Part shown: one piece after another, positions 10,677 through 40,391 of the stretch
How the letters are laid out: each line of letters starts with the position of its first letter
Numbering within the stretch: the stretch's first letter is position 1
Virus record (IMG/VR): IMGVR_UViG_3300025467_000022
Location: 1 to 50,874 of that record
DNA from: a virus
Length of the DNA stretch: 50,874 nt
Strand: one strand, 5' to 3'
The notes under the pieces: model-generated
The model's database searches: none
Seen by the model: only the letters and a program-made list of their open reading frames with translations
What the model was told of the DNA's origin: nothing
Program-made: the position numbers and the translations under genes

Positions 10677-11902
10677 TAATTATCGGCCTTGGGTTTGAGT
10701 ATTTGACTTAGTGCTTGACGTTCTTGTACTACCTTCCCTGCGATAGTAGCTGTATTATTGTTGTTAATAAATCCAGTACGTTGAGTTTGTCTTAGCTTTG
10801 TTGAATATACACTTACAGAAGTATCTTCATTAGGTACTGAAGGATCATAATTGTTGGTCATTGTCATACGTACACTTTCATCAAATTTAATCCAATGTGT
10901 ACCGCTCCAGCGGAATAGAACATTAGGAAAGAAATCTGTTCTTAAATGAAACTGCCCAGTTACTGTTTTGTCAGTAGGAAAACTAGTACCAAATGTATAT
11001 GGAGCACCATTAGGTGGTCGACCAGTACCTGTAAGATATCCTACATAGTAGTTTTTAGTAGGACTTCTTAAAGTCATCGAAGCATCAACAATTCCTTCCA
11101 ATGAATCAATCGAAGCATCAGCATCAGTTTGCGAAGCATCTTCATGTGCTATAGTACCATCGGGATTTAATGGAACAACATAGTATTGATGAGTATCATA
11201 ACCGCTGAGTGCTGCGTCTGCTTCTGCTTGTGCAATAATTGAATTGTTGATTTCAATGCTGGTATTATACGTTGAGATGAGATCTCTCAGAGTCGAACCG
11301 TCACCTGCGCCTGCATCAGCACCTAGTATCTGACTGTATTCTTGACTATCAACTAAAGGTACACATTTAACACGCAATAAGTGAGGATGCCAAGTCGGGC
11401 TATATCCGTTAGCAGCACGAGTCACATCTTGTACTACATAAAATCTTTTAAGAGCAACCATAGCGTCATCTAGGGTGTATTCATCCTTTAAGTGAGGCAA
11501 TTCGATAACATCACCTGACATAAGTTTACGTTCAATGGTATCTACACAATTTCTTAGATGGAAATGAATAAAAATGTTATCATTATTCAACATTATACCA
11601 AACTGACTTAGATTAAAATCTAAGTCCTGCATAGTATAAATTCCTCGCATTACGAATACATTAGGATCATAACTGCGATCCCGGTTTTCCATTAGTATCA
11701 CATCTTGAATTCCAAGTTCGCCGAGGGGATTGCTTTGATTAGGAACTCCTGGAGATGCATCGCCCGCTGATGGCTCAACAGGGCCAAGGTACTTGTGTAC
11801 AAAAACATCAGTACCACCAATCTGAAACTGTTGTTCGATCATACGATCGATATATCTAAAATTATTTCCCTTCTCGGGCCGGTACATTGATAGTCTTGGC
11901 AT
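10676..11902 (-). CDS. 14: Neck protein, gp14-like
   Basis: gp14 and gp13 form the neck that closes the filled head and receives the tail. The call rests on position (between gp13 and gp15, as in T4) and on a gp14-like middle: FGIMLNNDNIFIHFHLR, a GDVIELPHLKDEYTLDD segment and KRFYVVQDVTRAANG. At 408 aa it is longer than T4 gp14 (256). Residues ~285-345 carry an added module with GQFHLRTDFFPNVLFRWSG and THWIKF. TAAATA lies 5 bases before the ATG in a palindrome shared with the divergent gp13 gene; a GGAG touches the ATG too closely for normal use. Confidence 0.6.
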   Translation of the reverse strand: MPRLSMYRPEKGNNFRYIDRMIEQQFQIGGTDVFVHKYLGPVEPSAGDASPGVPNQSNPLGELGIQDVILMENRDRSYDPNVFVMRGIYTMQDLDFNLSQFGIMLNNDNIFIHFHLRNCVDTIERKLMSGDVIELPHLKDEYTLDDAMVALKRFYVVQDVTRAANGYSPTWHPHLLRVKCVPLVDSQEYSQILGADAGAGDGSTLRDLISTYNTSIEINNSIIAQAEADAALSGYDTHQYYVVPLNPDGTIAHEDASQTDADASIDSLEGIVDASMTLRSPTKNYYVGYLTGTGRPPNGAPYTFGTSFPTDKTVTGQFHLRTDFFPNVLFRWSGTHWIKFDESVRMTMTNNYDPSVPNEDTSVSVYSTKLRQTQRTGFINNNNTATIAGKVVQERQALSQILKPKADN

Positions 11903-11907
11903 ACTCC

Positions 11908-11921
11908 TATTTAGCTAAATA
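11908..11921. promoter_or_regulatory. Palindromic bidirectional late promoter
   Basis: TATTTAGCTAAATA is a perfect 14-bp palindrome. Read on either strand it presents TAAATA exactly 5 bases before an ATG: 11927 on the + strand and 11902 on the minus strand. By T4 late-promoter spacing both transcripts would begin on their start codons. Confidence 0.75.
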
Positions 11922-11926
11922 ATTGT

Positions 11927-12685
11927 ATGAGCACAATTGAACAAGCACGCCAACCTATAGTTGATTACATCAAGGCTATGCTAGGTGACGGTATGATTGA
12001 CGTTGAACTAGATCCAGTTCACTACAATACCGCTATTGATAAAGCATTTGCCAAATATCGTCAACGATCATCAAATGCTGTAGAGGAAAGTTGGGCGTTC
12101 CTTACAATGGAACAAGATACCAACGAATATACACTAAGCCAAGATGTTATCGAAGTGCGAGATGTATTTCGCCGATCGATTGGTTCTAGAACAGGTGGTG
12201 GAGATACAGGTTCATTATTTGAACCATTTAACTTGGCTTATTCAAATACCTATCTACTAAGTTCTAGCAACATGGGCGGATTAGCTACTTACTATGCGTT
12301 TGCTTCTTATCAAAAATTAGTTGGTAAGATGTTCGGTAGTTACATTATGTTTACTTGGAACCCTAGCACCAAGAAGCTAGTGGTTCAACAAAGACCTAGA
12401 GGCGAAGAAACTCTATTAATTTGGTGCTATAACTACAAACCAGACTTTGTTCTGCTCAACGATCCATATGCAGGCATTTGGCTCAAGGATTATGCACTTG
12501 CACAATCGAAAATTATCCTAGGACAAGCACGTTCGATGTTTTCTCAGATTGCTAGTCCGCAGGGCGGAACTACACTCAACGGCGATGCTCTTAAACAAGA
12601 AGGCGAAGCTGCTATTGAACGATTAGAAACTGAATTGATTAATTATTCGGAAGGTGGCAAACCAATGTGGTTTGTTGTAGGATAA
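11927..12685 (+). CDS. 13: Neck protein, gp13-like
   Basis: Recognised by its C-terminal half, WLKDYALAQSKIILGQARSM, then SPQGGTTLNGDALKQEGEAA and IERLETEL, a pattern shared by gp13 proteins of T4-like environmental phages. The first part includes YRQRSSNAVEESWAFLTM and a strand-rich middle. It is 252 aa against 309 in T4. gp13 works with gp14 to seal the packaged head. No ribosome-binding site precedes the ATG; TAAATA lies 5 bases before it, predicting a leaderless message. Unlike T4, gp13 and gp14 here are divergent rather than cotranscribed. Confidence 0.75.
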   Translation: MSTIEQARQPIVDYIKAMLGDGMIDVELDPVHYNTAIDKAFAKYRQRSSNAVEESWAFLTMEQDTNEYTLSQDVIEVRDVFRRSIGSRTGGGDTGSLFEPFNLAYSNTYLLSSSNMGGLATYYAFASYQKLVGKMFGSYIMFTWNPSTKKLVVQQRPRGEETLLIWCYNYKPDFVLLNDPYAGIWLKDYALAQSKIILGQARSMFSQIASPQGGTTLNGDALKQEGEAAIERLETELINYSEGGKPMWFVVG

Positions 12686-13048: not shown

Positions 13049-13090
13049 TTGACCGTTGATTCTTAATCATGTATAATGCAAACATGATTA
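13049..13090 (+). promoter_or_regulatory. Perfect sigma70 promoter with dyad and leaderless start
   Basis: TTGACC (13049-13054), a 17-base spacer and TATAAT (13072-13077). The predicted start is 13084, the A of the kinase ATG. TAATCATG (13064-13071) and CATGATTA (13083-13090) form a perfect 8-bp inverted repeat enclosing the -10 box and the start codon. Confidence 0.8.
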
Positions 13091-13737
13091 TAGGAATTTC
13101 TGGCCTGATTGGATCAGGCAAAGACACTGCCGCAGACTATCTCTGCACAGTACACGGTTTTAAGCGCATGAGCTTCGGGGCATCTCTTAAAGATGCAATC
13201 TCTGTTATATTCGGATGGGATAGAGATCTTCTCGAAGGGTCAACTAAGCACAGCCGAGAATGGCGTGAGCAAGTTGACGAATGGTGGGCAACTCGATTAA
13301 ACATTCCCGATCTCACTCCTCGTTGGGTTCTACAGCAATGGGGAACAGAAGTTGCTCGCCGAGGATTTCACGACGAAATTTGGGTAGCATCAGTCGAACG
13401 AAAACTTCTTAATGTCAAAGACGACATTGTTATCACAGACTGTCGGTTTATCAACGAAATGATAGCAATTAAAAATGCAGGCGGCATCACTGTTCGAACA
13501 CATCGAGGTACGGATCCGACCTGGTTAGAGTTTGCTGCTGTGTTAAACAATACCGAAGACGAAGCAATAAAATCTCGGTGTTTAGAAATTCTCAATGAAC
13601 GAAATGTCCATGCTAGCGAATATTCTAGTGTCGGTTTTGAGTATGATGTTCATTTAGACAATGACGGATCAATTGATGATCTTCACCGTCAGATTAGAAG
13701 TCAGGTACTAGGTCTCCCTGACGCCACGGAAGTCTAA
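13084..13737 (+). CDS. 1: Deoxynucleoside monophosphate kinase, T4 gp1-like
   Basis: It transfers phosphate from ATP to dNMPs for phage DNA synthesis. A P-loop GLIGSGKDTAADYL covers residues 7-20. Further features typical of this family are RMSFGASLKDAIS, LTPRWVLQQWGTEVARR and VITDCRFINE, with a probable catalytic Arg/Asp. An in-frame ATG at 13069 exists but lies before the -10 box TATAAT, so the ATG at 13084 is the sensible start and lies exactly on the predicted transcript start. The gene has no ribosome-binding site. Its 3' end overlaps the convergent gene at 13694 by 44 bases. Confidence 0.85.
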   Translation: MIIGISGLIGSGKDTAADYLCTVHGFKRMSFGASLKDAISVIFGWDRDLLEGSTKHSREWREQVDEWWATRLNIPDLTPRWVLQQWGTEVARRGFHDEIWVASVERKLLNVKDDIVITDCRFINEMIAIKNAGGITVRTHRGTDPTWLEFAAVLNNTEDEAIKSRCLEILNERNVHASEYSSVGFEYDVHLDNDGSIDDLHRQIRSQVLGLPDATEV

Positions 13738-14089: not shown

Positions 14090-14095
14090 TAAATA
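14090..14095 (+). promoter_or_regulatory. Late-promoter-like TAAATA for the sheath gene
   Basis: ACTAAATACTG lies 33 bases before the sheath ATG. This very highly expressed gene keeps a leader with GGGAG, in contrast to the leaderless late genes. Confidence 0.5.
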
Positions 14096-14128
14096 CTGAC
14101 AACGAAACCATATTTGGGAGAAATACTA

Positions 14129-17100
14129 ATGGCCACATTACAATCACCAGGCGTATCAGTTACAGTAGTAGATGAAAGCTTCTATACTCCAGCTGCACCA
14201 GGAACTGTACCTCTAATTTTTGTTGCTTCGGCACAAGATAAAACTAATCCATCGGGTACAGTTGCAGTAGGCACTCAAGCTGCTAACGCTGGCACAGTTT
14301 ACCTGATCACCAGTCAGAGAGATCTTACCGATACATTCGGTACTCCACTATTCTACACAGATGCGGGCGGAAACCCAATCAACGGTGGCGAAATTAACGA
14401 ATACGGCCTACAAGCTGCTTACAGTTTGCTAGGCGTAAGTTCACAGGCTTATGTTGTAAGAGCACCTGTAGACTTAGCTTCCTTAGCTGCTAGCTCTTCT
14501 GCACCTGCTGGCAATCCATCGGACGGCAGTTATTGGTTAGATACTACGAATACTGTATGGGGTATTTTTGAATGGAACCAAGCAACTGGTACATTCACTA
14601 ACAAGACTCCGATCGTAATCGACGACAGCAATTACGCTACTAGCACACTCGGCGGTCTTCCTGTAAATGGTCCTGCAGCAAGCATTGGTACAAAAGGTCA
14701 ATATGCAATTGTTGCTACCAGCGCACTAGATACAAACGTTGTTTGGTACAAGAACAGCGATGGTAACTGGGTACAGGTAGGATCGTCTGCCAACGAAGCA
14801 TGGAGCAATAGCAATACTTCTACTTTTGTAAGTACGGTATATGCTACAAGCTGGCCAGCAGTTGTTGGTACTACTACACCTACAACAATTACTACAGGTA
14901 GCACTTTTGTTATTAACAATTCGACTGCTACTATTACAGTTACTAACGGCGAAACACTTACCGCAGTTGCTTCAAGCATTAACAACGTTATGCGTTCGCA
15001 AGGCGTAGGTGCTAAAATCCTTAACGGTTCATTGGCATTGTATGCAACTAGTGCGGCTGCTTCAAATGGTACAACTAAAGACGGTAACATTGTTATTGCA
15101 TCGACTACAACTGCAACTTCGTTGTTGCTATCGGAATTAGGTCTTACACCAGGAACTTATACAGGTCCGACAGTATTTGTTGGTCCGCACACACAGTATC
15201 CGAACTTTACATCAGATCCAACTGGTAGTGTTTACATGAAGACTACCAGTCCTAATTCGGGACAGATTTGGACAGTTAAGAAATGGTCAGCAAGCTCAGA
15301 TGTGTTTACAACTGTTTCGGCTCCGGTATACAGCGGCGCCGCCGCCGCAATTTATGGTATCGATCCAATCGGCGGTGGTGCAAATATTCCAGTAGGCACA
15401 GTATACGTAGAAAGCAATTTTGATCACGGTAATAATACTTTCAATAGCCTAGGTACTAAACTTCCTACACTTGCTGAATTTAAAATCCATCAACGTGCTG
15501 CGGTTTCACCTACTACTATCACAAGTGCAGTAACAACAGGAACTATTTCGCTAACTTCAGGTACAATCGTTCTTGATGTGTCGATTCCGGGGTCAACTGG
15601 ACATTTTAACACTACTACAATTTCAGTATCTTCGGGCACTAATTTAGTACCATTAGTTACTGCTATTAATAACAGTGGTGTTCCGTACGTTAGTGCTACA
15701 CTCAATGCAAACGGTACTGTATCAATTTCGCATAGCACAGGTGGTGAAATTCGATTTACTGATGCCGGTAACATCTTAGGATCGGCGTTGTTTAATGAAA
15801 ATTCTACTCCTAACTTCTATGCTGTTGGTAATTATGATCCATCAGGTAGAACTGCAAAAGCAAGTAACTGGACTACATTAAGCTATACTGCATCACCTAC
15901 TGCACCGAGCACACAGCCAGCAAATGGTCAGCTATGGTACAGCTCAATTGTCGATCAGGTAGACGTATTGTATAATAATGGTACTTCGTGGGTTGGTTAT
16001 CTAAATGCATTCCCTACTACAGATCCAAACGGTCCACAGGTAGCAGCACTTGCTCCAACTACGCAAAGCGATGGTACTCCACTAGTTAATGGTGATATTT
16101 GGATCAGCACTGCCGATTTAGAAATGTACGGACATGAGATTTATGTTTGGAATAGTAGTTCACTACAGTGGATACTACAAGATCCAACAGATCAAACTTC
16201 GCCAAATGGTTGGGTCTTTGCAGATGCACGTTGGGCAACATCAGGTCAGTCAGTTACTGCTTCGCCGATTACATCGTTGCTAGCTTCTAACTACGTCGAC
16301 CCAGATGCTCCGGATCCTTCGCTATATCCACGAGGAACTCGACTATGGAATCTACGTCGTTCAGGATTCAACGTTAAGCAGTATGTGACAAATTACATCA
16401 ATGTCAATGCTAATGGCGGATACAACCTTCGTGTAGCAGGCGATCCGTTGGCCACTTACAATACAAACCGTTGGGTTTCTGTAAGTCCAAATAATAACGA
16501 CGGATCGGGTACATTTGGACGCAAAGCACAGCGTTCATATGTTGTTAAAACAATGAAGGCGTTAATTGACGGTAATATCGCAGTTAGAGATACAGATTCA
16601 TTGAACTTTAATTTGATTGCGTGCCCAGGCTACGTTGAAACAGTTCAAAACCTAATTGGTCTTAACACTGATCGTGGTATTACTGCATTTGTTGTTGGTG
16701 ACACTCCATTCCGCTTGCCATCTGATGCAACATCATTGAAAGCATGGGGCGACAACACAAATGGTGCATTTGACAATGGTGATGTTGGCGCAGTTAGTTA
16801 TGATCAATACACTGCACTATATTATCCAAGTGGATTTACCAATGACTTAACTGGTAACAACATTGTTGTTCCACCAAGTCACATGATGCTTCGCACAATT
16901 GCACTCAGCGATCAGCAAAGCTATCCATGGTTTGCTCCTGCAGGTGTTCGTCGAGGTGTTGTCGATAACGCTACTTCGGTAGGATATGTTGACGGTCAAA
17001 CTGGTGAGTTTGTATTAGCTTCATTGCCACAACCTACTAGAGACGTGCTAGCTTCGGTTAAAGTTAATCCGATTGCTACACTAACTGGAGTTGGTATTGT

Positions 17101-17476
17101 TGCATTTGGACAATACACTCGTGCTAATGTAGCAAGTTCGTTGGATCGTATCAATGTTGCTCGACTAGTAGCACATCTACGTCGTCAGTTAGATATCTTG
17201 TCCAGACCATACTTGTTTGAACCAAATGACAAGATCACACGCGATGAAATTAAGAATGCTGCACAAAGTATGCTACTTGAACTAGTAGGACAGCGTGCAA
17301 TTTACGACTTCATTGTTGTTTGTGACGAATCGAATAACACCCCTGATAGAATTGATCGTTCAGAACTTTGGATGGACATTGCTATCGAACCAGTTAAAGC
17401 AGTTGAATTTATTTACATTCCACTTCGCTTAGTCAACACTGGAGCAATCCAAGCTGGAACTTACACTCTAGCATAA
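14129..17476 (+). CDS. 18: Tail sheath protein gp18, enlarged
   Basis: gp18 forms the contractile outer tube of the tail. The ATG at 14129 follows GGGAG by 8 bases; an upstream TTG at 14114 is not needed. The N-terminus (LQSPGVSVTVVDESFYTPAA) and the C-terminal ~380 residues, with DRINVARLVAHLRRQLD and FIYIPLRLVNTG, are sheath core. It has 1115 aa against 659 in T4; the extra ~450 residues lie between about 120 and 690. They hold Trp/Gly/Pro modules such as DGSYWLDTTNTVWGIFEW, NGQLWYSSIVDQVDVLY and NGDIWISTADLEMYGHEIYV. In T4 the outer domains are also N-terminal insertions, so these probably decorate the tail surface. Confidence 0.9.
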   Translation: MATLQSPGVSVTVVDESFYTPAAPGTVPLIFVASAQDKTNPSGTVAVGTQAANAGTVYLITSQRDLTDTFGTPLFYTDAGGNPINGGEINEYGLQAAYSLLGVSSQAYVVRAPVDLASLAASSSAPAGNPSDGSYWLDTTNTVWGIFEWNQATGTFTNKTPIVIDDSNYATSTLGGLPVNGPAASIGTKGQYAIVATSALDTNVVWYKNSDGNWVQVGSSANEAWSNSNTSTFVSTVYATSWPAVVGTTTPTTITTGSTFVINNSTATITVTNGETLTAVASSINNVMRSQGVGAKILNGSLALYATSAAASNGTTKDGNIVIASTTTATSLLLSELGLTPGTYTGPTVFVGPHTQYPNFTSDPTGSVYMKTTSPNSGQIWTVKKWSASSDVFTTVSAPVYSGAAAAIYGIDPIGGGANIPVGTVYVESNFDHGNNTFNSLGTKLPTLAEFKIHQRAAVSPTTITSAVTTGTISLTSGTIVLDVSIPGSTGHFNTTTISVSSGTNLVPLVTAINNSGVPYVSATLNANGTVSISHSTGGEIRFTDAGNILGSALFNENSTPNFYAVGNYDPSGRTAKASNWTTLSYTASPTAPSTQPANGQLWYSSIVDQVDVLYNNGTSWVGYLNAFPTTDPNGPQVAALAPTTQSDGTPLVNGDIWISTADLEMYGHEIYVWNSSSLQWILQDPTDQTSPNGWVFADARWATSGQSVTASPITSLLASNYVDPDAPDPSLYPRGTRLWNLRRSGFNVKQYVTNYINVNANGGYNLRVAGDPLATYNTNRWVSVSPNNNDGSGTFGRKAQRSYVVKTMKALIDGNIAVRDTDSLNFNLIACPGYVETVQNLIGLNTDRGITAFVVGDTPFRLPSDATSLKAWGDNTNGAFDNGDVGAVSYDQYTALYYPSGFTNDLTGNNIVVPPSHMMLRTIALSDQQSYPWFAPAGVRRGVVDNATSVGYVDGQTGEFVLASLPQPTRDVLASVKVNPIATLTGVGIVAFGQYTRANVASSLDRINVARLVAHLRRQLDILSRPYLFEPNDKITRDEIKNAAQSMLLELVGQRAIYDFIVVCDESNNTPDRIDRSELWMDIAIEPVKAVEFIYIPLRLVNTGAIQAGTYTLA

Positions 17477-18157: not shown

Positions 18158-18187
18158 AAAGGCCCGGCTAATAACCGGGCCTTTTTT
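18158..18187 (+). terminator. Strong terminator after gp19
   Basis: AAAGGCCCGG pairs with CCGGGCC(TTT) around a 7-base loop, followed by six T. It separates the sheath/tube unit from the next gene, whose own late promoter begins 5 bases on. Confidence 0.9.
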
Positions 18188-18191
18188 GTGA

Positions 18192-18199
18192 TATAAATA
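18192..18199 (+). promoter_or_regulatory. Perfect T4-type late promoter TATAAATA
   Basis: A full 8/8 match to the T4 late consensus, ending 5 bases before the ATG at 18205. The predicted transcript start falls on the A of the ATG. Confidence 0.75.
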
Positions 18200-18204
18200 A
18201 TAAT

Positions 18205-19897: not shown

Positions 19898-20278
19898 ATG
19901 TCTAATTATTATAATAATCTTCCACAACCAAATCAAAATCGAGACAGTACACAGTCTACACTTCAAATTTTTGATACATATAATCAAAAACCAGTTAGCA
20001 TCGATGCAGCAACTTACGATGCAATGACTGGATTTTTTGCCAGTAGGGGATTCGGAAAAGACTCTGCACAGAGCATGGCCTATGTTATTTTAAAACAGGC
20101 ACTAATTGATAAAATTAAACCTTTTGAATTAATCAGTTCATTAAAAGGGTTAGACGATCTACAGTTAAGCAATTTAATCACCGAGTTACTAAATTATAAT
20201 AGATACAAATCTAGCAGCTTGGGAACTGCTTCTCCTTTTACTCCTGCAGAAGAAGTGGCTAGGAATATCGTTGCATGA
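19898..20278 (+). CDS. Conserved phage structural-type protein, 126 aa
   Basis: Signature pieces are YDAMTGFFASRGFGKDSAQS, KIKPFELISSLKGLDDLQLS and ITELLNYNRYKSSSLG, a helical protein pattern I recall from environmental T4-like phages between tail and head-completion genes. The function is not known; a virion protein is likely from position. The stop overlaps the start of the gp4-like gene by 4 bases (ATGA), so the two are translationally coupled. Confidence 0.65.
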   Translation: MSNYYNNLPQPNQNRDSTQSTLQIFDTYNQKPVSIDAATYDAMTGFFASRGFGKDSAQSMAYVILKQALIDKIKPFELISSLKGLDDLQLSNLITELLNYNRYKSSSLGTASPFTPAEEVARNIVA

Positions 20279-20718
20279 GTATGAAATTCGCCAAGGATTT
20301 TTTCAAATTAAAGAATCCTGAAAAATATGTAGGGTTAGGTACTCCGATGTATAGATCGTCATGGGAATTAGCAGTAATGAAAATGTGCGACGAGAATCCT
20401 TCTATACAAAATTGGGCAAGTGAATCTATTAAAATACCTTACAGAGATCCCTTAACTGGAAAAAATACTGTTTATGTTCCAGATTTTCTAGTTGTATATG
20501 TTGATCGCAATCAAAAACATCATACAGAACTTTGGGAGATAAAACCAAAGAATCAAGCGGTATTAGAATCTGTAGGGAAGAATCCCTACAATCAAGCACA
20601 ATATATTAAAAATATGGCCAAGTGGCAAGTTGCTCGACAATGGTCAAAAAAACACGGCATTACATTTAGAGTTCTTACAGAAGATGATATTTTCCATTTA
20701 GGCGGTAAAAGACGATAA
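20275..20718 (+). CDS. 4: Head completion protein, gp4-like
   Basis: T4 gp4 (also called gp50/65) acts on the filled head before tail joining and has a nuclease-like fold. Here YRSSWELAVMKMCDENPSI, ESIKIPYRDPLTGK, VYVPDFLVVYVD (from about residue 67) and TELWEIKPKNQ (from about 84) form a PD-(D/E)xK pattern: PD, then E-x-K. The length of 147 aa matches the family (T4, 150). It may trim or check DNA ends at the portal. An in-frame ATG at 20281 is also possible. Confidence 0.75.
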   Translation: MSMKFAKDFFKLKNPEKYVGLGTPMYRSSWELAVMKMCDENPSIQNWASESIKIPYRDPLTGKNTVYVPDFLVVYVDRNQKHHTELWEIKPKNQAVLESVGKNPYNQAQYIKNMAKWQVARQWSKKHGITFRVLTEDDIFHLGGKRR

Positions 20719-32591: not shown

Positions 32592-32595
32592 TACC

Positions 32596-32780
32596 TTAGC
32601 TAGATAATTTAGAATACTTTTCTTTTCGAGATTCTGATAGTTTTTTTCGGGTTTCTTGACTCATAGGCTTTTTGGAATAATATGATGCTTTTCTGTATAA
32701 GTACCAGGAGATAATGTTCTTGACTTAGCTCGTTCGATTATGCTATTATATACACTAGAATATTTATTTTGCAGAAACAC
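32596..32780 (-). pseudogene. Remnant of an HNH homing endonuclease
   Basis: On the minus strand a GTG ORF at 32780-32661 encodes 39 residues with VYNSIIERAKSRTL and TYTEKHHIIPKSL, then stops. This is the N-terminal signature of phage HNH homing endonucleases (Y-T-E-x-H-H-I-I-P-K-S-L-G-G). In another frame, overlapping its end, 32664-32596 encodes MSQETRKKLSESRKEKYSKL, the NUMOD3 DNA-binding motif found at their C-terminal side. The catalytic core between them is missing and the frames do not match, so this is a deleted, frame-broken gene. It lies after uvsW and before the ATT-start gene. Confidence 0.8.
32720..32749 (+). promoter_or_regulatory. Possible promoter inside the HNH remnant
   Basis: TTGACT (32720-32725), an 18-base spacer and TATTAT (32744-32749), about 90 bases before the ATT start at 32839. 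Could be a chance match in remnant coding sequence. Confidence 0.35.
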
Positions 32781-32838
32781 TTAATAATCTCCGTACAATG
32801 GATGGTTGCAATTTATATATTATTTATGGAGAATTAAC

Positions 32839-33342
32839 ATTCAAATCCTTACATTAGAAAACAAAACGTTTTTCCTAAATGATTTACCAGATATTGTAGA
32901 TGACGATCTTAGATTTGCGGTGCTCGACAATAGCGATAATCAAAATCCAGATTATTTCTTTTTGCCGCTGATATTTTTAGAATCATTTACAGGCCCGGCA
33001 GTGGTACTAAGAATAGGCAAACATGAAATCACTATGCCTCTAGATTGGTGTACTATTGTAGGCGACCCGGCAGGTCCGGAATTAGAAGTGTTACCATTGA
33101 CTAGTTTAAACGATCGCGGATTTAAGACTTTTACATTTAATCCGTTAAGCTCATTTAGACCAGAATTCTATGACATTGATATCATTAATGTCTATCAAGA
33201 TGTTAAATGGTATTTTCCTAAAATGAAACCAGGACAACTTTTATGTGCCCCATTGCACGGCGGAGAAAATCCAATCTGTGCATATTTTGTTAAAGAAGTT
33301 AGTCGCCAGTGTGAGCTGGTACACTATACCCGTTGCTGGTAA
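32839..33342 (+). CDS. Conserved phage protein with ATT start, 167 aa
   Basis: Reading from an ATT at 32839 the product begins (M)QILTLENKTFFLNDLPDIVD, then DYFFLPLIFLESFTGPAVVL, ITMPLDWCTIVGDPAGP and DVKWYFPKMKPGQLLCAPLH. From memory, relatives in T4-like marine phages begin Met-x-Ile-Leu-Thr-Leu-Glu-Asn-Lys, so the ATT stands where they have ATG. GGAG lies 7 bases before it and no in-frame ATG is near; the alternative is a TTG at 32806 with no ribosome-binding site. It precedes the gp62-like gene and so may be part of replication. The function is not known. Confidence 0.7.
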   Translation: MQILTLENKTFFLNDLPDIVDDDLRFAVLDNSDNQNPDYFFLPLIFLESFTGPAVVLRIGKHEITMPLDWCTIVGDPAGPELEVLPLTSLNDRGFKTFTFNPLSSFRPEFYDIDIINVYQDVKWYFPKMKPGQLLCAPLHGGENPICAYFVKEVSRQCELVHYTRCW

Positions 33343-33357
33343 AAGAAAGGTAAACTA

Positions 33358-33552
33358 ATGCTTACTAAAGAAAAACTCAATCATCATATTAATCACCTAC
33401 AAGAAAAGCATGCCGTGTTAGATCGACAGATTGATTTAATGGAATCAAACGGGCATTTCGAAGATACAGATATTACACATCTTAAGAAAAAGCGTCTTGC
33501 AATCAATGACGAAATCAATTTGGTCAAATCACAGATTGTAAATCTAACATAA
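33358..33552 (+). CDS. YdcH-like (DUF465) coiled-coil protein, 64 aa
   Basis: The whole protein is a helical hairpin: HHINHLQEKHAVLDRQIDLM, ESNGHFEDTDITHLKKKRLA and INDEINLVKSQI. The spacing H-x-L-x(4)-H-x-x-L-D-x-x-I, then LKK-x-R-L, matches the small bacterial YdcH/DUF465 family. Family members are about 70 aa with no firmly known role. AAAGG precedes the ATG. It lies between the ATT-start gene and the gp62-like gene. The match is by pattern only. Confidence 0.65.
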   Translation: MLTKEKLNHHINHLQEKHAVLDRQIDLMESNGHFEDTDITHLKKKRLAINDEINLVKSQIVNLT

Positions 33553-33575
33553 AATTAGTATAATAGGAACTGAAT

Positions 33576-34031
33576 ATGGCATTAGATATCAAACGAGAAT
33601 TAGCGGGGGTCGATCTTAGGAATTATAATTTCTATGATAAACTCACCGACGAAGAGAAGAAATCATTCAGTCCCTATATTTTAATGCGATATGTCAGTAA
33701 TGTAGAGGGCGATCAAGAGTTGCAGGAATGGTTCCTAGAGATGACTAATGAGCTAGTTAATAAAGATCATTGGATATTAAGCAAGAATCATAAAGCACTA
33801 TTGTGGAAACTTTTTGCAAGTTGCGGCGGCGGAATTAAAGTATATCATCCGTATCTTAAAGCTGGAACTAAGGAAAAAGCAGTTAAGATTGAAAAGCTGT
33901 TGGCAGAAATTTATCCAGCAATGAAACTCGAAGATATCAAGTTAATGGCCAGTATGATGACCAAAACTGATAAAAATGAATTATTTGACAAAATGGGCTT
34001 TGATAAAAAGCAGCGCAAGGAATATGAATAA
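33576..34031 (+). CDS. 62: Sliding clamp loader small subunit, gp62-like
   Basis: gp62 with gp44 loads the gp45 clamp. The order of features parallels gp62 proteins of T4-like environmental phages as I recall them: a short YDKLTDEEKKSFSPYILMRY segment (in the family Y-x-x-F-M-V-N-R-x-L-S), a WFLEMTNELVNKDHWILSK stretch, KALLWKLFASCGGG, then IEKLLAEIYPAMKLEDIKLM and a basic tail. Length 151 aa against 187 in T4. The genes for gp44 and gp45 are not in the window, so the assignment is moderate. AGGA precedes the ATG; the stop overlaps the next start (TAATG). Confidence 0.55.
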   Translation: MALDIKRELAGVDLRNYNFYDKLTDEEKKSFSPYILMRYVSNVEGDQELQEWFLEMTNELVNKDHWILSKNHKALLWKLFASCGGGIKVYHPYLKAGTKEKAVKIEKLLAEIYPAMKLEDIKLMASMMTKTDKNELFDKMGFDKKQRKEYE

Positions 34032-34261
34032 TGAAGGATAAACTAGGATTTGCATTCAACTTAGGATGTAAAGTTGCTCGCGCAATATCAGTTGGTCGTA
34101 GTAGCACAGACCTCGCAATCTGTACTGTGACAAGAATCGAAGATGGAAAAATTTATCTCGATGATAGTAAAGTTCATATTAGATTCCCCGAACGGTTGTT
34201 AATTATTGAACAAGACCCGTTATATCGCATGGTTAAAAACTATGAGAATTCTAAACCGTGA
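34031..34261 (+). CDS. Small conserved-type phage protein, 76 aa
   Basis: A compact beta-rich protein: LGFAFNLGCKVARAISVGRS, CTVTRIEDGKIYLDDSKVHI and RFPERLLIIEQD. The pattern (basic GR, then TVT-x-I-x-D/N-G-K-I/M-Y-L-D-x-S-K) is one I recall from other T4-like phages near replication genes. The start overlaps the gp62-like stop and the stop overlaps the next GTG start, so translation is coupled on both sides. The function is unknown; a small SH3-like barrel would fit. Confidence 0.65.
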   Translation: MKDKLGFAFNLGCKVARAISVGRSSTDLAICTVTRIEDGKIYLDDSKVHIRFPERLLIIEQDPLYRMVKNYENSKP

Positions 34262-34953
34262 TCAATTTAGAGGCACAACCATTTAACTGTGTGCATTGCG
34301 GCAAGAGTTTTATGAAAGAGCGCACACTCATATCCCACCTCTGTGAGCAGAAGCGTCGTGCTCTTCAAAAAGATGAGAAGCGTGTCCAGGCTGGTTATAT
34401 GGCATTCAATAGATTTTTCCAACTTACACAAAATGCAAAGAAGAAAAAAAGTTATGAAGAATTTTGCAAAACTAGCTATTATAATGCTTTCGTCAAGTTT
34501 GGTAGCTTTGTCAATAATGTTAATCCTCTTTATCCCGATAAGTTTATTGATTATGTTATTAAAAGCGGAGTAAAGTTAGATCATTGGTGCAGAGACGAAC
34601 TTTATGAAAAATATCTTTATGATATGCTTAAAGTAGAACCTGTAGAAGCTGCGGTACAGCGTACTATTGCTACAATGATCGAATGGGGAGAAGTTAACTC
34701 TGCAAATTATACACATTATTTTAACTATGTTAATTTAAATCGTGCAGTACATGATATCAAAAATGGAAAAATCAGTTGTTGGGTAATGTTAAATTGCCGC
34801 AGTGGCAAGGAAATGTTGAGTAAGTTTAGTGACGATCAACTAGATATGATAGCTCCAGCATTAGACATGCCGCATTGGGTAAAGCGTTTTAGAGAAACGC
34901 CAGCAGATGTTGCGTTAGTTAAAGAAATATGCAAAGAGACCGGAATAGCATGA
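34258..34953 (+). CDS. Zinc-finger phage protein, 231 aa, GTG start
   Basis: Starts at a GTG overlapping the previous stop (GTGA). N-terminal zinc finger FNCVHCGKSFMKERTLISHL then C (residues 9-29, C-x2-C-x12-H-x2-C type), followed by EQKRRALQKDEKRVQAGYMA. The rest is helical: YNAFVKFGSFVNNVNPLYPD, WCRDELYEKYLYDMLKVEP and ISCWVMLNCRSGKEMLSKFS. I recall proteins with this finger and body as conserved in T4-like environmental phages; none has a known role. Position among replication genes suggests nucleic-acid binding. The stop overlaps the next ATG. Confidence 0.7.
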   Translation: MINLEAQPFNCVHCGKSFMKERTLISHLCEQKRRALQKDEKRVQAGYMAFNRFFQLTQNAKKKKSYEEFCKTSYYNAFVKFGSFVNNVNPLYPDKFIDYVIKSGVKLDHWCRDELYEKYLYDMLKVEPVEAAVQRTIATMIEWGEVNSANYTHYFNYVNLNRAVHDIKNGKISCWVMLNCRSGKEMLSKFSDDQLDMIAPALDMPHWVKRFRETPADVALVKEICKETGIA

Positions 34954-35336
34954 CTACACTTAATAAAGCCAGAGAATTTTTATCTAGATGGCGAATGACC
35001 ATTGTCGATTCTAACCGCAGGACACCTTCCTATCCGAAACATATCACTTATTATCGATATGATGATATCAACAATATGCCAACTCACTACGAAACTGAAA
35101 TTCTACATACTATTCAAATTCCCGAAAGTGCATTAGAAGCATTGGTAGACTTCTATGAACGGGTAGAAGAGAGTATGAAATACACAGGTAGTATGGATGT
35201 TTTCAATCATTATATTGAACGGCAAAACGCAGATAAAGCGATAAGAGAGAAATATCCTACAGTGCAAAAAGCCTACGATCAATATATGATGCTGCATAAG
35301 CTCGCAAAATCAGGCGAAAATAATGCCAGACGTTGA
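34950..35336 (+). CDS. Hypothetical phage protein, 128 aa
   Basis: The ATG at 34950 overlaps the previous stop (ATGA); upstream in-frame codons are ignored. The product begins MTTLNKAREFLSRWRMTIVD, has a central strand region with HYETEILHTIQIPESALEAL and a helical C-terminus (NADKAIREKYPTVQKAYDQY). No domain is recognised. It overlaps the DnaE-like gene by 14 bases, so the two are expressed together. Confidence 0.65.
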   Translation: MTTLNKAREFLSRWRMTIVDSNRRTPSYPKHITYYRYDDINNMPTHYETEILHTIQIPESALEALVDFYERVEESMKYTGSMDVFNHYIERQNADKAIREKYPTVQKAYDQYMMLHKLAKSGENNARR

Positions 35337-35892
35337 TTTAGATTTTGCTAACAGAGACGAAGTGCTATCAATTATACCACATATTCCGGCAATGATTAAC
35401 GGTAACAAGAAGCATAATACAGGTGTATATTGTCATGAAATTCCAGTTAATCCTCTCACAGGTTTATCTGCAATCGAGTATAATGAAGCAGAAGAGCGTG
35501 GATATTTTAAGATCGACTTTCTAAATGTCAATGTATATAAAGATATTCAAAACGAAGCACACTTACAAAAACTAATGGAGCAAGAACCATTATGGGATTT
35601 GTTAAAACAGGATGATTTCGTAAATCTACTATTTCACCTAAACGGACACGGAGATATTTTGAAAAAGACTTGCCCTACCTCTGTAGAACAATTAGCTGCT
35701 GTGCTAGCGATGATTCGTCCGGCTAAGAGGCATTTGATTGGAAAAGATTGGTCGACAATTATGAGTGAGGTTTGGACAAAACCCGTCGACGGAAGCTATT
35801 ACTTCAAGCGATCTCATGCAATCAGCTACGCAATGGTAGTAGTAGTTCACATGAACTTACTCTGTCAGAAATTTAGCGAATCTTCTTGTTAG
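35323..35892 (+). CDS. Mini DnaE-like protein (Pol III alpha palm and finger motifs), 189 aa
   Basis: It begins MPDVDLDFANRDEV, equivalent to the P-D-x-D-x-D-F motif of bacterial DNA polymerase III alpha, whose first two Asp (E. coli 401, 403) bind catalytic metal. Residues 61-72, YFKIDFLNVNVY, match the K-F-D-F-L-G-L segment with the third catalytic Asp (here D65). Residues 116-135 (KTCPTS, LAAVLAMIRPAK) match the ...ALYRPGP finger segment, and 161-170 FKRSHAISYA matches F-N-K-S-H-A-x-x-Y-A. The PHP, thumb, clamp-binding and OB parts are absent. From memory, close relatives occur in T4-like marine phages. Whether it polymerises is unknown. Ends 20 bases inside the convergent gene. Confidence 0.75.
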   Translation: MPDVDLDFANRDEVLSIIPHIPAMINGNKKHNTGVYCHEIPVNPLTGLSAIEYNEAEERGYFKIDFLNVNVYKDIQNEAHLQKLMEQEPLWDLLKQDDFVNLLFHLNGHGDILKKTCPTSVEQLAAVLAMIRPAKRHLIGKDWSTIMSEVWTKPVDGSYYFKRSHAISYAMVVVVHMNLLCQKFSESSC

Positions 35893-36262
35893 GGTTACGA
35901 ACGAGTTGAATAGATTTTCTTTTAATTCGTTTCTCAGCTATTTCGCTTAGATTAACTGTAGGTCCGAATATGATGTTTACATCTTTACTATTAAATGTCT
36001 TAATGATAGGACGGTATGGGGTCATATCTAGCTTTAAAAATATATTAATAGGAATCTTACGATTCGACTCCCACCACCATACTTCGCCTAATTCTAAGAA
36101 TCGTTGCTTATCATCATCTGATTTAAGCAATGAATAATCATAGATGCTAGTTACTTGCATATCATTGTTAATAATGATGCCGACATATTCTTCATCGCCA
36201 CACTGAATGCAGGTAATAAAGGGGAAATTCTGTTGGAATTCTTCTGTTTTGTTATGTTTCAT
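35873..36262 (-). CDS. Conserved phage protein, 129 aa
   Basis: Features: FITCIQCGDEEYVGIIINND, a WWWESNRKIPINIFLKLDM segment with three Trp, FNSKDVNIIFGPTVNLSEIA and a basic end KRIKRKSIQLVRNPNKK. The WWWESNRxIPINIFL motif is one I recall as conserved in T4-like marine phages, unassigned in function. It is the only minus-strand gene inside the replication block and lies between the DnaE-like gene and a virion-type gene, overlapping the former by 20 bases at the 3' ends. Confidence 0.65.
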   Translation of the reverse strand: MKHNKTEEFQQNFPFITCIQCGDEEYVGIIINNDMQVTSIYDYSLLKSDDDKQRFLELGEVWWWESNRKIPINIFLKLDMTPYRPIIKTFNSKDVNIIFGPTVNLSEIAEKRIKRKSIQLVRNPNKKIR

Positions 36263-36282
36263 TTTTCAATAAATATAATGCT

Positions 36283-37383
36283 ATGAACAAGTTACCAGTC
36301 TATTTATATTCAAATCAATTCGACGTAATATTGGATCTGGACCAAAACAGGGGAATCAATCAGATTATGTACCAGAGAAAGCTAAAAATCCAAAAAGGAT
36401 TTAAGGATTATATTCAAATCCAATTTAAAAACTCCGATCAAAAACCTGTATCATTATCGACCTCTAGTAATTATTGGTTCGATTTAATCGATTCCTATGG
36501 CAGACAACTTGTTCTTACTAAACCGTTAACTATTATAGATGACACTGTAACTTTCGCTGTTTCTCAAGCGCAAACCTCGACTAACACATTGCTTAATTTT
36601 GCCGATACTAGTAAAATTACTGTTGGTCAATCTGCATCTGGCTTCGGCATTCCTATTAATTCTACAGTAGTTGGCGTAACAACCAACACTGTAACTTTGA
36701 GTAAACCGACAAATTATCTCATAACTACTGCAACTTCAGTAACATTTAATACCCTTGCACTAAGAGGCGTAGCAAAATTAGAATTAGATCCACAAGATAC
36801 TATTAATTTAACTGCTGCTAGTTATAAAATTGTAGTCAAACAAGCAAATAATGACGGCACTTTTACTCCTGCTTATGCAAATACCTACTACGGAATTGCA
36901 GGAGATATTGAAATTCAAGAAGACGGCTATCCGATCGGATTCCCAGTACAAACTGTTAATCGAGCTCAACTCGAAGCAGGCAAAGAATACGACTATGATA
37001 TTAACAATTTGGGTTATATTTTCTTCACAGGCTGGTTGCGCCCATATCCGAGTGCAATGACTACTAGCTCAACTCAATGTGTTTCAATTAATTTGAATAA
37101 CTTTGCCGGTACGATTACTGTACAAGGGACGCTAGATAACAATCCGAGTCCGGCAGGCCAAGCCAATGCCGAGGCATTTACTATTACTAATTACGTATCA
37201 GCAACTCCTACACAAGCAACAATTCAGCTTTCATGGAACACTGTAGTAACCGCAGTTCGATTCTCAGTAAAACCATTTAACGATGCGTTCGGTGTTAACT
37301 ATTATCCAACTGGAAATCCTATTGGTTCAGAAATGAACAAATTTCCAAATGGATTTATTGACATGTTCTCATATTTCAGCTAA
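36283..37383 (+). CDS. Probable virion structural protein, 366 aa
   Basis: It begins MNKLPVYLYSNQFDVILDLD, then YQRKLKIQKGFKDYIQIQFK and NSDQKPVSL. This N-terminal pattern (PVYLYxN, then RxLKIxxGxxxxIxIxxxNSDQK) I recall in virion proteins of T4-like environmental phages. The middle (residues 95-160) has a Thr/Val-rich beta region. The C-terminal third (NLNNFAGTITVQGTLDNNPS) looks like a jelly-roll or carbohydrate-binding-type beta sandwich. TAAATA lies 7 bases before the ATG and overlaps a TATAAT-like string. It lies oddly amid replication genes. Confidence 0.6.
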   Translation: MNKLPVYLYSNQFDVILDLDQNRGINQIMYQRKLKIQKGFKDYIQIQFKNSDQKPVSLSTSSNYWFDLIDSYGRQLVLTKPLTIIDDTVTFAVSQAQTSTNTLLNFADTSKITVGQSASGFGIPINSTVVGVTTNTVTLSKPTNYLITTATSVTFNTLALRGVAKLELDPQDTINLTAASYKIVVKQANNDGTFTPAYANTYYGIAGDIEIQEDGYPIGFPVQTVNRAQLEAGKEYDYDINNLGYIFFTGWLRPYPSAMTTSSTQCVSINLNNFAGTITVQGTLDNNPSPAGQANAEAFTITNYVSATPTQATIQLSWNTVVTAVRFSVKPFNDAFGVNYYPTGNPIGSEMNKFPNGFIDMFSYFS

Positions 37384-37392
37384 AATAGTAGA

Positions 37393-38403
37393 ATGAACCT
37401 AATAGTGGCTACTTTACAGGCCGTCTTGCCGAGTGATCGTAAGATGACACCTACTGGCTGGGAAAGCTTCGATGCCCCCTGCTGTATCCATCGTGGCGAA
37501 ACTCGTGATACTAAAAAACGCGGTGGTGTTATCTTCAAAGGCGACGGATTTACATTTCATTGTTTTAATTGCAACTTTAAAGCAGGCTGGACTCCTGGTC
37601 ACGTATTAACTAATAACACACGTAGTTTAATGTTATGGTTAGGAGTTCCTGATAGTGAGGTACAGAAACTTTCTTTGGAGGTAATTCGGGTCAAAAACGA
37701 CCTCAAACCAGCAGAAAAGACCCTAGATTTTGTCCTAAAACCTAAGGATTTGCCTCAAAATAGCAAGACTTTTGCCGAATGGGTACACGAGGGCTGCGAA
37801 GATGAAAATTTACTTGCTACAATCGCCTATGTTTTAGATAGAGGAATGCAACTCGATTGGTATAAGTGGATGTGGACTGATGCACCTGGATATCAAGATC
37901 GGTTAATCATACCGTATTATCATGAAAAGAAAATAGTAGGTTGGACTGCTCGTAAAATAACTGAGGGTAAACCTAAATACCTAACGTCAGCACAGCCTAG
38001 TTATGTGTTCAATTTAGATGAACAAAATTATAACCGACGTTATGTAATTGTTGTCGAAGGACCGATCGATGCAATCACAGTAGACGGCGTTGCTGTTATG
38101 AGCAATGAAATTAATGAGACTCAGCTAATGAGGATAAATTCGTTAGGCAAAGAAGTGATCCTTGTTCCAGATCGAGATTTACCCGGATCTAAGATGTTGA
38201 ACACAGCAATAGCTCAAGGATGGTCTGCGAGTTTGCCCGATTGGGGAGATGACGTTAAGGACGTTGCGGATGCTGTGCGTAAATTTGGCAGAGTATATAC
38301 GCTTTTCACTATATTAAAATATCGAGAACATGGTGAAATAAAACTGACTATGATGAGGAAAAGAATAGAAAAATATGCAGAAGAACAACAACGCAACACC
38401 TAA
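37393..38403 (+). CDS. 61: DNA primase gp61
   Basis: gp61 makes RNA primers for lagging-strand synthesis together with helicase gp41. N-terminal zinc site: C30, H33 (in PCCIHRGE) with C57 and C60 (FHCFNCNF). Core: LIIPYYHEKKIVGWTARKI. TOPRIM motifs: VIVVEGPIDAITVDG (about 218-232, catalytic Glu) and VILVPDRDLPG (about 256, Asp-x-Asp). 336 aa; T4 gp61 has 342. No ribosome-binding site; AAAATA lies 5 bases before the ATG, a one-base variant of the leaderless late pattern. Its 3' end overlaps gp41. Confidence 0.9.
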   Translation: MNLIVATLQAVLPSDRKMTPTGWESFDAPCCIHRGETRDTKKRGGVIFKGDGFTFHCFNCNFKAGWTPGHVLTNNTRSLMLWLGVPDSEVQKLSLEVIRVKNDLKPAEKTLDFVLKPKDLPQNSKTFAEWVHEGCEDENLLATIAYVLDRGMQLDWYKWMWTDAPGYQDRLIIPYYHEKKIVGWTARKITEGKPKYLTSAQPSYVFNLDEQNYNRRYVIVVEGPIDAITVDGVAVMSNEINETQLMRINSLGKEVILVPDRDLPGSKMLNTAIAQGWSASLPDWGDDVKDVADAVRKFGRVYTLFTILKYREHGEIKLTMMRKRIEKYAEEQQRNT

Positions 38404-39823
38404 TTATAGTTATGAAATACAAAAATTGTATCTAGAAATGTTTATGAGCGATGCTATTACATTTATTCGCTGTGCTAACATTTTTGATCCAGAAAATTTT
38501 GATAGAAAACTCCAAGAAACTGCAGGGTTTATTAAGACATATGTCGACCAATACAAGGTTATGCCAGAAGCACAGATTGTTAATGCAAGCTGCGGAATGG
38601 AATTAAACCCTGCAGCACTTCCTGCAGAAAATTATGAATGGTTAATGAACGAATTCGAACAGTTTTCCAGACATAAAGGCCTAGAACGAGCGATTCTAAA
38701 ATCGGCAGATTTACTGGAAAAAGGTGAATACGGACCAGTTGAGAAGATGATTAAAGATGCTGTGCAAATATCACTACAAAAAGATATGGGTACAGACTAC
38801 TTTGAAGATCCTCGAGGCCGTCTAGAAGGACTTAAAAATTCCAATGGTCAGATTAGCACAGGTTGGCCAAGCGTAGATAAGAAGCTTTACGGCGGATTTA
38901 ATCGTGGCGAACTTAACATTTGGTGTGCAGCATCGGGTGGTGGTAAGTCACTATTCCTTGCAAATCTAGGATGTAACTGGGCATTAGCAGGGCTTAATGT
39001 TCTTTATTTAACGTTCGAACTTAGTGAAGCATTGGTTGCTATGCGTATGGATAGTATGTTAACCGGTGTTGCAACTCGTGAGGTATTTAAAAACCTTGAC
39101 GATGTTGAACTCAAAGTTAAGATGATGGGCAAACAGTCTGGTAGCATACAGATCAAGTACATGCCCAGCGGCAAAACGGCCAATGATCTTCGAGCATATC
39201 TAAAAGAATATCAGGTTAAGAAAGGGTTTAAACCGGATATTTTGCTAATTGACTACTTGGATCTTATGATGCCAATGTCAGTTAAAGTTAGTCCCAGCGA
39301 TTTGTTTGTCAAGGACAAATATGTTTCTGAAGAATTGCGTAACCTAGCAATGGAAACACAGGCAATTGTTGTTACAGCATCTCAGCTTAACCGTGCAGCA
39401 GTAGAAGAAATCGAATTCGATCACAGTCACATCTCAGGCGGACTTTCGAAGATTCAGACAGCAGACAATGTTATCGGTATTTTTACAAGTCGAGCAATGA
39501 AGGAACGAGGCCGTTATCAAATTCAGTTTATGAAAACACGTAGTTCTAGCGGTGTTGGACAAAAAGTTGATTTGGAATTTGATCTCGATACATTGCGTAT
39601 TAGAGATCTAGGAGAAGAAGAAGCTTATAATTCTGCGCCAAAACCTAGTGTATATGAAGGTTTAAAGAAAACTTCAACAATTAAATCAAATGTTGAATAC
39701 GACGGTACTACAGGCGAAATACGAGATCCTACTGAAGGTATAAATGTAGGAAAGGTTAGAGCCACAACAGGTAGCTCAAAAATACGAGAAATGATTGCTG
39801 GATTAAATTCTGAAAAAGATTAA
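38375..39823 (+). CDS. 41: Replicative helicase gp41 (DnaB-like)
   Basis: A hexameric 5'-3' helicase at the fork. The N-terminal ~160 residues are the helical collar domain. RecA-type motor: Walker A AASGGGKSLFLANLG (about 187-201), VLYLTFELSEALVAMRMD, Walker B DILLIDYLDLMMP (about 287-299), VVTASQLNRAAVEE and the arginine-finger region YQIQFMKTRSSSGVG. 482 aa against 475 in T4. It starts inside the primase gene (29-base overlap), matching their joint role as primosome. Its stop overlaps the convergent AlgH-like gene by 4 bases. Confidence 0.95.
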   Translation: MQKNNNATPNYSYEIQKLYLEMFMSDAITFIRCANIFDPENFDRKLQETAGFIKTYVDQYKVMPEAQIVNASCGMELNPAALPAENYEWLMNEFEQFSRHKGLERAILKSADLLEKGEYGPVEKMIKDAVQISLQKDMGTDYFEDPRGRLEGLKNSNGQISTGWPSVDKKLYGGFNRGELNIWCAASGGGKSLFLANLGCNWALAGLNVLYLTFELSEALVAMRMDSMLTGVATREVFKNLDDVELKVKMMGKQSGSIQIKYMPSGKTANDLRAYLKEYQVKKGFKPDILLIDYLDLMMPMSVKVSPSDLFVKDKYVSEELRNLAMETQAIVVTASQLNRAAVEEIEFDHSHISGGLSKIQTADNVIGIFTSRAMKERGRYQIQFMKTRSSSGVGQKVDLEFDLDTLRIRDLGEEEAYNSAPKPSVYEGLKKTSTIKSNVEYDGTTGEIRDPTEGINVGKVRATTGSSKIREMIAGLNSEKD

Positions 39824-40380
39824 AATAAATCAGCTATACGGTGGCTTACGCAACGGTCGATTGACCGTTGCCACTGTTCTTCTCCGGCACCAGTGAGGCA
39901 TAAATCTACAGTAGCAGGTGCAGTTAACCAACGATGACTAGCTGTCCACGGATCTAACCCGCTTTGTTCACCATCTAGTTGTCCCGCACTCCATACTGCT
40001 AGACCAACTCCTGCCCTGTATAACTTAGGACCTTCTCCTTGGCTAATGGCAGAAAGAATAGATACATCACCTGTGATCCCAATTTTATCTGTGATTTTTA
40101 GTGTGCTTGCACTGGTCCAATCTAAAGTGTGAATAACATGAACTCGAGTTGATTCAACCGGACCACCTATATAAACTAATTCAGGTCCTTGATAATCAAT
40201 TCCCGCAGCTTCCATAATAGTTTGCATTGTTACTGCTTTCGAGGGTCGATTAACTACGACTCCCCAAGCACCGGTTAAGCTGTGTTGAGCAATTAATACA
40301 ACACTTTTGGCAAAATGGTAGTCTGAATTCCTAGGTTGCGAGACCAGAATTTGCCCGTTTAAAAAGTTATTCTCATTCAT
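39820..40380 (-). CDS. AlgH/YqgE-family protein
   Basis: The UPF0301 fold is a bacterial protein of ~185 aa, whose members (AlgH, YqgE) are of unclear biochemical role. Here 186 aa with FLNGQILVSQPRNSDYHFAK (N-terminal family motif), SVVLIAQHSLTGAWGVVVNR with PS, YIGGPVESTRVHVIHTLDW, RAGVGLAVWSAGQLDGE (A-G-W-x-x-x-Q-L-x-x-E) and HRWLTAPATVDL. The ATG at 40380 is chosen: TAAATA ends 5 bases before it, so a leaderless late transcript is predicted; a TTG one codon upstream has no support. AlgH in a phage is unusual and suggests capture from a proteobacterial host. Confidence 0.9.
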   Translation of the reverse strand: MNENNFLNGQILVSQPRNSDYHFAKSVVLIAQHSLTGAWGVVVNRPSKAVTMQTIMEAAGIDYQGPELVYIGGPVESTRVHVIHTLDWTSASTLKITDKIGITGDVSILSAISQGEGPKLYRAGVGLAVWSAGQLDGEQSGLDPWTASHRWLTAPATVDLCLTGAGEEQWQRSIDRCVSHRIADLF

Positions 40381-40385
40381 CAATC

Positions 40386-40391
40386 TATTTA
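40386..40391 (-). promoter_or_regulatory. Late promoter of the AlgH-like gene, leaderless
   Basis: On the minus strand TAAATAGATTG runs to the ATG at 40380; the TAAATA ends exactly 5 bases before it. Confidence 0.6.

Follow-up and report, generated by a model that had tools for sequence, protein, structure and literature searches.

The DNA considered here, a window of 50,874 bases (IMG/VR virus record IMGVR_UViG_3300025467_000022, treated as a piece of a larger genome), stems from a group of viruses that infect aquatic bacteria, are related to T4 and have not been cultured. Its special feature is a set of six gene starts in which the hexamer TAAATA lies exactly five bases before the ATG (TAAATA-N5-ATG), and these boxes are very probably T4-late-like promoters with the transcription start (+1) on the A of the AUG or at most some three bases away, giving leaderless messages; a subset of sigma-70 promoters appears to be arranged alike. 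A gp55-type sigma factor on the host RNA polymerase would read TAAATA as a -10 box, the messages of the neck, terminase, tail-tube-like, other virion and AlgH-like genes would carry neither a 5' leader nor a Shine-Dalgarno (SD) sequence, and ribosomes would have to initiate at a 5'-terminal AUG. The sigma-70 subset (primase, and dNMP kinase in some phages) would follow the same build one base further apart, and other late genes (sheath, main tube) would be served by promoters ≈ 20-35 bases upstream, with an SD sequence. The closest isolate to the gp17 and gp13 of the window is the Pseudomonas jumbo phage PA5oct (55% and 48% amino acid identity, respectively), which the window also resembles in gene order; scans of genome contigs for a host gave no confirmed relative.

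The six starts named in a first-pass annotation of the window, at 11902 and 40380 on the minus strand and at 11927, 18205, 22530 and 24101 on the plus strand, are all present in the sequence. The minus-strand genes encode a gp14-like virion protein and an AlgH-like (DUF179) protein, the plus-strand genes the gp13 adaptor, a second tail-tube-like protein, the gp17 terminase and a virion structural protein, respectively. At 18205 the box reads TATAAATA, the full late box that had been reported there. In total, eight TAAATA-N5-ATG strings occur in the window, against a mean of 1.38 and a maximum of 4 in 100 dinucleotide shuffles (both strands), the control that the annotation had proposed, and against two matches to the reversed pattern; TAAATA itself is found 36 times on the two strands. 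The remaining two N5 strings, at 6233 and 45109 on the plus strand, lie within or antisense to long open reading frames (ORFs) and mark no gene start. Genes were called with a simple longest-ORF script, by which multiple ATGs per gene may count, and among the called starts the spacing is 5 in six cases and 7 in one, never 0-4, 6 or 8-16. The seventh gene (ATG 36283) shows spacings of 5, 6 and 6 in relatives. The ORF at 40380 has an in-frame TTG directly before its ATG. The tail sheath gene, said to combine the same core with a normal leader, does so (Table 1).

For pooled statistics, the window was combined with six related IMG/VR contigs, of which 72-320 kb each were analysed (G015 without 20001-40000, G007 to 320,000 of 322,512, G013 to 200,000 of 200,604 and G020 to 200,000 of 206,751; pieces of G002, G014 and G029 were not pooled). 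Counted in these relatives, as the annotation had likewise suggested, the N5 peak recurs, amounting to 59 sites together with the window. The gp14-like, gp13, 18205, gp17 and 24101 genes have TAAATA at 4-7 bases in all six contigs, while no close TAAATA was found at the genes for SSB (gp32), UvsX, helicases and primase among the same contigs, wherever a start could be assigned. The conservation is most complete at gp13: in 80 IMG/VR loci (58-96% amino acid identity), TAAATA stands 4-6 bases before the ATG in 79 and exactly five bases in 76, and 43 distinct spacers occur among 74 non-identical sites with box and distance constant. The gp17 genes are more variable; in the 76 of 80 loci that could be counted (L023, L025, L026 and L030, whose match lacks the N-terminus, were omitted), TAAATA is found at 4-7 bases in 46 (38 at 5) and TAAGTA at 5-8 bases in 11. 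In some remoter gp17 orthologues (L048-L079) TAAGTA replaces TAAATA at similar spacing, possibly reflecting a shift in late-sigma specificity. The AlgH-like (DUF179) phage protein, with its late-type promoter, is retained in relatives.

The distance from TAAATA to ATG is bimodal in the pooled genomes, with a sharp peak at 5, a trough at 8-16 and a second class at 17 and above. With k as the number of intervening bases, 0, 0, 1 and 2 sites were counted for k = 0-3, then 9, 59, 10 and 19 for k = 4-7, 22 in total for k = 8-16, and 133 for k = 17-40. Such a trough is to be expected, because boxes at k = 8-16 would yield leaders of 3-11 nucleotides (if +1 follows N5), too short to hold an SD sequence. 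SD-like words at -16 to -5 accompany 2 of the 97 starts with k = 4-7 but 87 of the 133 with k = 17-40; among the remaining ATG genes they are present in 247 of 531. The annotation had stated that the six close starts have no normally spaced ribosome-binding site; the GGAG within the five-base spacer at 11902 is too near the ATG for a normal SD sequence. The start codons at spacing 5 are 59 ATG, no GTG and one TTG, compared with 892, 122 and 201, respectively, among first start codons of called ORFs. Bacterial start sites favour a pyrimidine-purine step, and a pyrimidine precedes the ATG at 92% of the 59 N5 sites; a purine is found at none of 71 gp13 and none of 37 gp17 non-identical N5 sites, against 54% of 680 control starts, and its absence at gp13 is what would be expected if +1 were the A of the AUG. 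In the k = 7 class (n = 19), 94% of sites have A or G, and none has T, at the fifth position behind TAAATA, which fits initiation three nucleotides before the AUG. In the available part of PMC2988020 the T4 late box spans -13 to -6, so that N5 would place +1 on the A of the ATG, as the annotation had proposed from T4, with the TAAATA core ending at -6, roughly a helical turn before the predicted start. Taken together, these patterns strongly suggest leaderless transcripts.

The surroundings of the boxes point in the same direction. Sixteen of the 59 N5 sites are divergent, 16 follow terminator-like hairpins, 13 lie at most 20 bases after a same-strand gene, and the remainder occupy other intergenic positions or lie at edges. 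The boxes at 18205 and 22530 are each immediately preceded by a strong hairpin with a T-run; hairpin-like sequence with a T-run also lies upstream of the 18205 orthologue in each of the six relatives (by eye), and the terminator-before-promoter layout at gp17 is similar in many relatives. The TAA of the box doubles as the upstream stop codon at 8 of the 59 sites, including 24101, where it ends gp17 (24090-24101). The divergent gp14-like and gp13 genes, with start codons ≈ 25 bp apart, have the 14-bp palindrome TATTTAGCTAAATA in common, and TATTTA...TAAATA is kept at most gp13 loci. The two -10 boxes almost touch, and two polymerases therefore probably cannot bind simultaneously. At one locus (L132) the divergent gp14-like and gp13 boxes overlap (TATTTATAAATA).

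A second promoter class shares the layout. The annotation had placed the primase gene (ATG 37393) beside the late genes for its AAAATA at the same spacing; the string is present, but it belongs to a sigma-70-type promoter, TTGACA-17-TAAAAT-N6-ATG, with TTGACA 17 bp upstream of the TAAAAT -10 box, and not to a late promoter. All four further assessable primase loci have the same type of promoter at N5 or N6. Since a general promoter scan yielded hardly more than shuffled sequence would (46 against 41 expected), a stricter one was used instead, in which near-consensus sigma-70 promoters (at least 10 of 12 matches) were tied to ATG distance in the pooled genomes; it returned 14 at k = 6, 2 at k = 5, 3 at k = 7 and none at k = 1-4, against 0.4 per position in shuffles. 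None of the 19 close sigma-70 starts has an SD-like word, compared with 62 of the 88 whose promoter lies 17-45 bases upstream, and 18 of the 19 have a pyrimidine before the ATG. The sigma-70 -10 box ends at -7 and not at -6, which accounts for a peak one base beyond that of TAAATA if +1 on the AUG is conserved, and the two offsets strongly suggest that both promoter classes aim their own +1 at the AUG. The label "late genes" for the layout is too narrow, as some sigma-70 genes share it. The dNMP kinase gene serves as an internal control: the sigma-70 box stands at N5-N6 in 7 of 76 non-identical loci, and most of the 69 loci that lack it have a GGAG- or GGGG-like motif ahead of that ATG (by eye). 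The start of this gene in the window is probably ATG 13084 and not 13069, because the in-frame ATG 13069 overlaps the sigma-70 -10 region and relatives begin at the equivalent ATG.

Among cultured phages, T4, Syn9, PA5oct (to 280,000 of 286,783), Atu_ph07 (220 kb), KVP40 (140 kb) and S-CRM01 have no or one site at k = 5, their boxes lying mostly at 16 or more; P-SSM2 has four, and at three of these the ATG follows an A. The Pelagibacter phage HTVC008M, on the other hand, has ten, at the tape measure, head closure, tail tube, baseplate and other genes, and at 7 of 7 sites between 6 and 20 kb the N5 ATG is also the gene start given in the database. In 42 of 44 IMG/VR loci related to its head-closure gene (L362 and L371 were omitted as partial), the spacing is 5 in 29, 6 in 6 and neither in 7, and many of the 42 have the back-to-back divergent box. 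A similar divergent pair separates the DNA end protector gene from the head closure gene in the HTVC008M-type marine contigs L328-L352, and HTVC008M curli assembly genes (annotated CsgF and CsgG; L242:7562-8887) start at an N5 late-type box. The UvsX of HTVC008M is only 30% identical to that of the window clade, compared with 63% for PA5oct and 67% for Atu_ph07, both of which lack the layout; to judge from these identities rather than from a tree, the layout probably arose independently at least twice. Two candidate explanations of its distribution were discarded. Phage bS21, considered as a ribosome factor favouring leaderless messages, matched in 6 of 24 records by profile (HTVC008M, G007, PA5oct, Atu_ph07, Phosso and Vibrio phage 2.275), including the layout-lacking PA5oct and Atu_ph07, and does not track the trait; the bS21-like protein of the 322-kb relative lies at G007:C1:37144-37296. 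A copy-number rule, with products of few copies leaderless and those of many copies SD-led, fits the window, where sheath and main tube carry leaders, but was not adopted, as the HTVC008M tail tube gene has the N5 layout. No published 5'-end map of a close relative was found for PA5oct in the parts of the literature available, and a word search of the SAR11 transcriptome paper PMC12753301 found no mention of HTVC008M, promoters or transcription start.

Late promoters whose +1 falls on the start codon fit every comparative test, including the spacing trough and the upstream terminators, and the leaderless messages that the annotation had deduced gain from fixed spacing with varying spacers, restriction to ATG, the preceding pyrimidine, late-gene specificity and the late sigma factor of the relatives: the gp55 profile (phrog_234) matches 10 of 12 records (9 of 11 IMG/VR contigs and PA5oct, the set not including the window), and such a protein may well act at the TAAATA boxes. 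Several observations nevertheless weigh against this interpretation. The co-activator profile gp33 (PF16805), matched in T4 and HTVC008M only among 13 records, was not found in nine IMG/VR contigs, PA5oct and Atu_ph07, although a short divergent protein could escape it. The gp45 profiles are uninformative, as phrog_223 matched nowhere and PF02916 only T4, missing even the expected HTVC008M. The TA of the T4 box at -13/-12 is mostly missing (in the 59 sites, -13 is A in 54%, G in 32% and T in 6-7%, and -12 is mixed), and TATAAATA is complete at only one of the six window starts; the class is therefore termed T4-late-like and not a strict T4-type late promoter, and according to the accessible part of PMC2988020 Aeromonas phage Aeh1 likewise departs at -13/-12. 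In keeping with a T4-type late promoter, on the other hand, no conserved -35 element was found, no base exceeding 42% at -38 to -23 in the 59 sites. A purine precedes the ATG at two of the six window sites (A at 24101, G at 40380; T at the other four), both TAAATA and TAAGTA are missing from the vicinity of the start at 19 of the 76 gp17 loci, and the 13 sites closely following a same-strand gene could be covered by read-through mRNAs too. The scarcity of SD words at close promoters is in part inevitable, because TAAATA itself occupies that space, and binomial P values overstate independence, as the pooled sites are mostly orthologues, so that no weight was put on them.

Chance in an A+T-rich genome, which the 36 hexamers of the window might suggest, is refuted by the shuffles, the reversed-pattern control, the conservation and the absence of the peak from the A+T-richer T4 and PA5oct, and its probability is virtually nil. 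It is also very unlikely that TAAATA acts in translation, as an AU-rich RNA-level signal before the AUG of leadered or polycistronic mRNAs, and not as a promoter box. TAAATA does occupy the SD position, and 13 sites closely follow a same-strand gene; the same box, however, recurs at least 17 bases upstream of SD-led genes and is used by T4 as a late promoter (PMC2988020, in its available part). Divergent and post-terminator placement, the pyrimidine before the ATG and the sigma-70 promoters with the same layout at a one-base-different offset also speak against such a signal.

If the late promoters were real and translation began at an internal codon further downstream, the messages would be leadered after all. 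Gene starts are indeed predictions, but the next candidate in gp17 lies 28 codons in, the alignment with PA5oct gp17 begins at residue 1, the spacing peak occurs with ATG but not with GTG or TTG, and the HTVC008M database starts coincide with N5 ATGs, which makes an internal start very unlikely. A mixed use, in which read-through mRNAs are also translated, for instance by restart at 24101 after the gp17 stop, and the leaderless form is minor, is unlikely too, though less so: the sharing of the box TAA with an upstream stop codon at eight sites is in its favour, while at the 16 divergent sites and the 16 behind terminator-like hairpins no upstream mRNA is expected.

Late transcription of T4 and leaderless translation are both textbook subjects, and no prior report of a systematic late-promoter/leaderless layout on essential virion genes was found in the open-access papers searched. 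The layout occurs in many aquatic contigs and gives exact, cheap predictions of transcript starts; it also corrects gene starts, as for dNMP kinase, and HTVC008M in SAR11 offers a cultured test system for why viruses would use leaderless mRNAs. A bolder proposal, which we regard as rather improbable, is that these phages sort genes into leaderless and SD-led ones by promoter placement alone, in both the sigma-70 and late programmes, and shift host ribosomes towards 5'-AUG initiation during infection, such that the class of a message sets the timing or amount of its translation, and that two distant lineages of the T4 superfamily came to this independently.

Table 1. Promoter boxes, genes and neighbouring elements of the window (N, number of bases between box and ATG).
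Feature	Position	Strand	Remarks
Palindrome TATTTAGCTAAATA, back-to-back late-type -10 boxes, divergent gp14-like (-) and gp13 (+)	11908-11921	.	sequence
gp14-like virion protein gene, TAAATA (11913-11908) N5 ATG	10676-11902	-	six relatives: spacing 5 in one, 7 in five
TAAATA-N5 and gp13 head-tail adaptor gene, ATG 11927	11916-12685	+	spacing 5 in 76/80 loci
Terminator hairpin with a T-run that stops a few bases short of TATAAATA	18158-18187	+	
TATAAATA-N5 and second tail-tube-like gene, ATG 18205	18192-19884	+	spacing 5 in 6/6 relatives
Terminator hairpin with T-run, immediately before the gp17 promoter	22487-22515	+	-19.5 kcal/mol for the stretch, z -3.7
TAAATA-N5 and gp17 terminase large subunit gene, ATG 22530	22519-24092	+	spacing 4 or 5 in 6/6 relatives
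TAAATA-N5 and virion structural gene, ATG 24101; gp17 stops at the TAA of the box	24090-26113	+	
TAAATA-N5 and AlgH-like (DUF179) gene (39820-40380), ATG 40380	39820-40391	-	spacing 5-7 in 4/4 relatives found
TAAATA-N7 and gene without assigned function, ATG 36283; predicted leader of 2-3 nucleotides	36270-37383	+	one relative without assignable start
Sigma-70-type TTGACA-17-TAAAAT-N6 and primase gene, ATG 37393	37358-38403	+	N5/N6 in 4/4 further assessable loci
Sigma-70-type TTGACC-17-TATAAT-N6 and dNMP kinase gene; start probably ATG 13084, not 13069	13049-13737	+	
Sigma-70-type TTGACA-17-TATATT-N6 and 93-residue gene without assigned function, ATG 5296	5015-5331	-	
Contrast: tail sheath gene, TAAATA 33 bases before ATG 14129, SD-like GGGAG	14090-17476	+	

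In comparison with known systems, the boxes of the window group resemble T4 late promoters in being -10-only TAAATA elements without a -35 region, placed before virion and packaging genes in phages whose relatives have a gp55 homologue. T4 differs in that its boxes lie mostly at least 16 bases before the ATG, with no called starts at spacing 5, whereas here +1 would fall on the ATG itself. Many leaderless mRNAs are known from mycobacteria, and lambda cI is another case; the messages proposed here would share with them the 5'-terminal AUG, the lack of an SD sequence and the use of AUG over GUG and UUG, but the layout is conserved in virion-gene orthologues from many phages and rests on two promoter classes. 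The preference of E. coli leaderless mRNAs for AUG over GUG and UUG is described in the available part of PMC9031893. Along these lines, phage transcripts are called "often leaderless" in the accessible text of PMC5312081, which itself gives AR9 leaders of 26-491 nucleotides. The late TATG promoters of phiKZ are alike in that a phage promoter motif includes the ATG at the start site; there, however, +1 is the G of TATG, so that the AUG is incomplete, and the polymerase is phage-encoded (PMC4666361, as far as available). Among the cyanophages and Pelagibacter phages of the T4 superfamily, HTVC008M has the N5 layout and a back-to-back divergent pair, whereas Syn9 and S-CRM01 share the TAAATA late-type boxes, mostly at a distance from the ATG.

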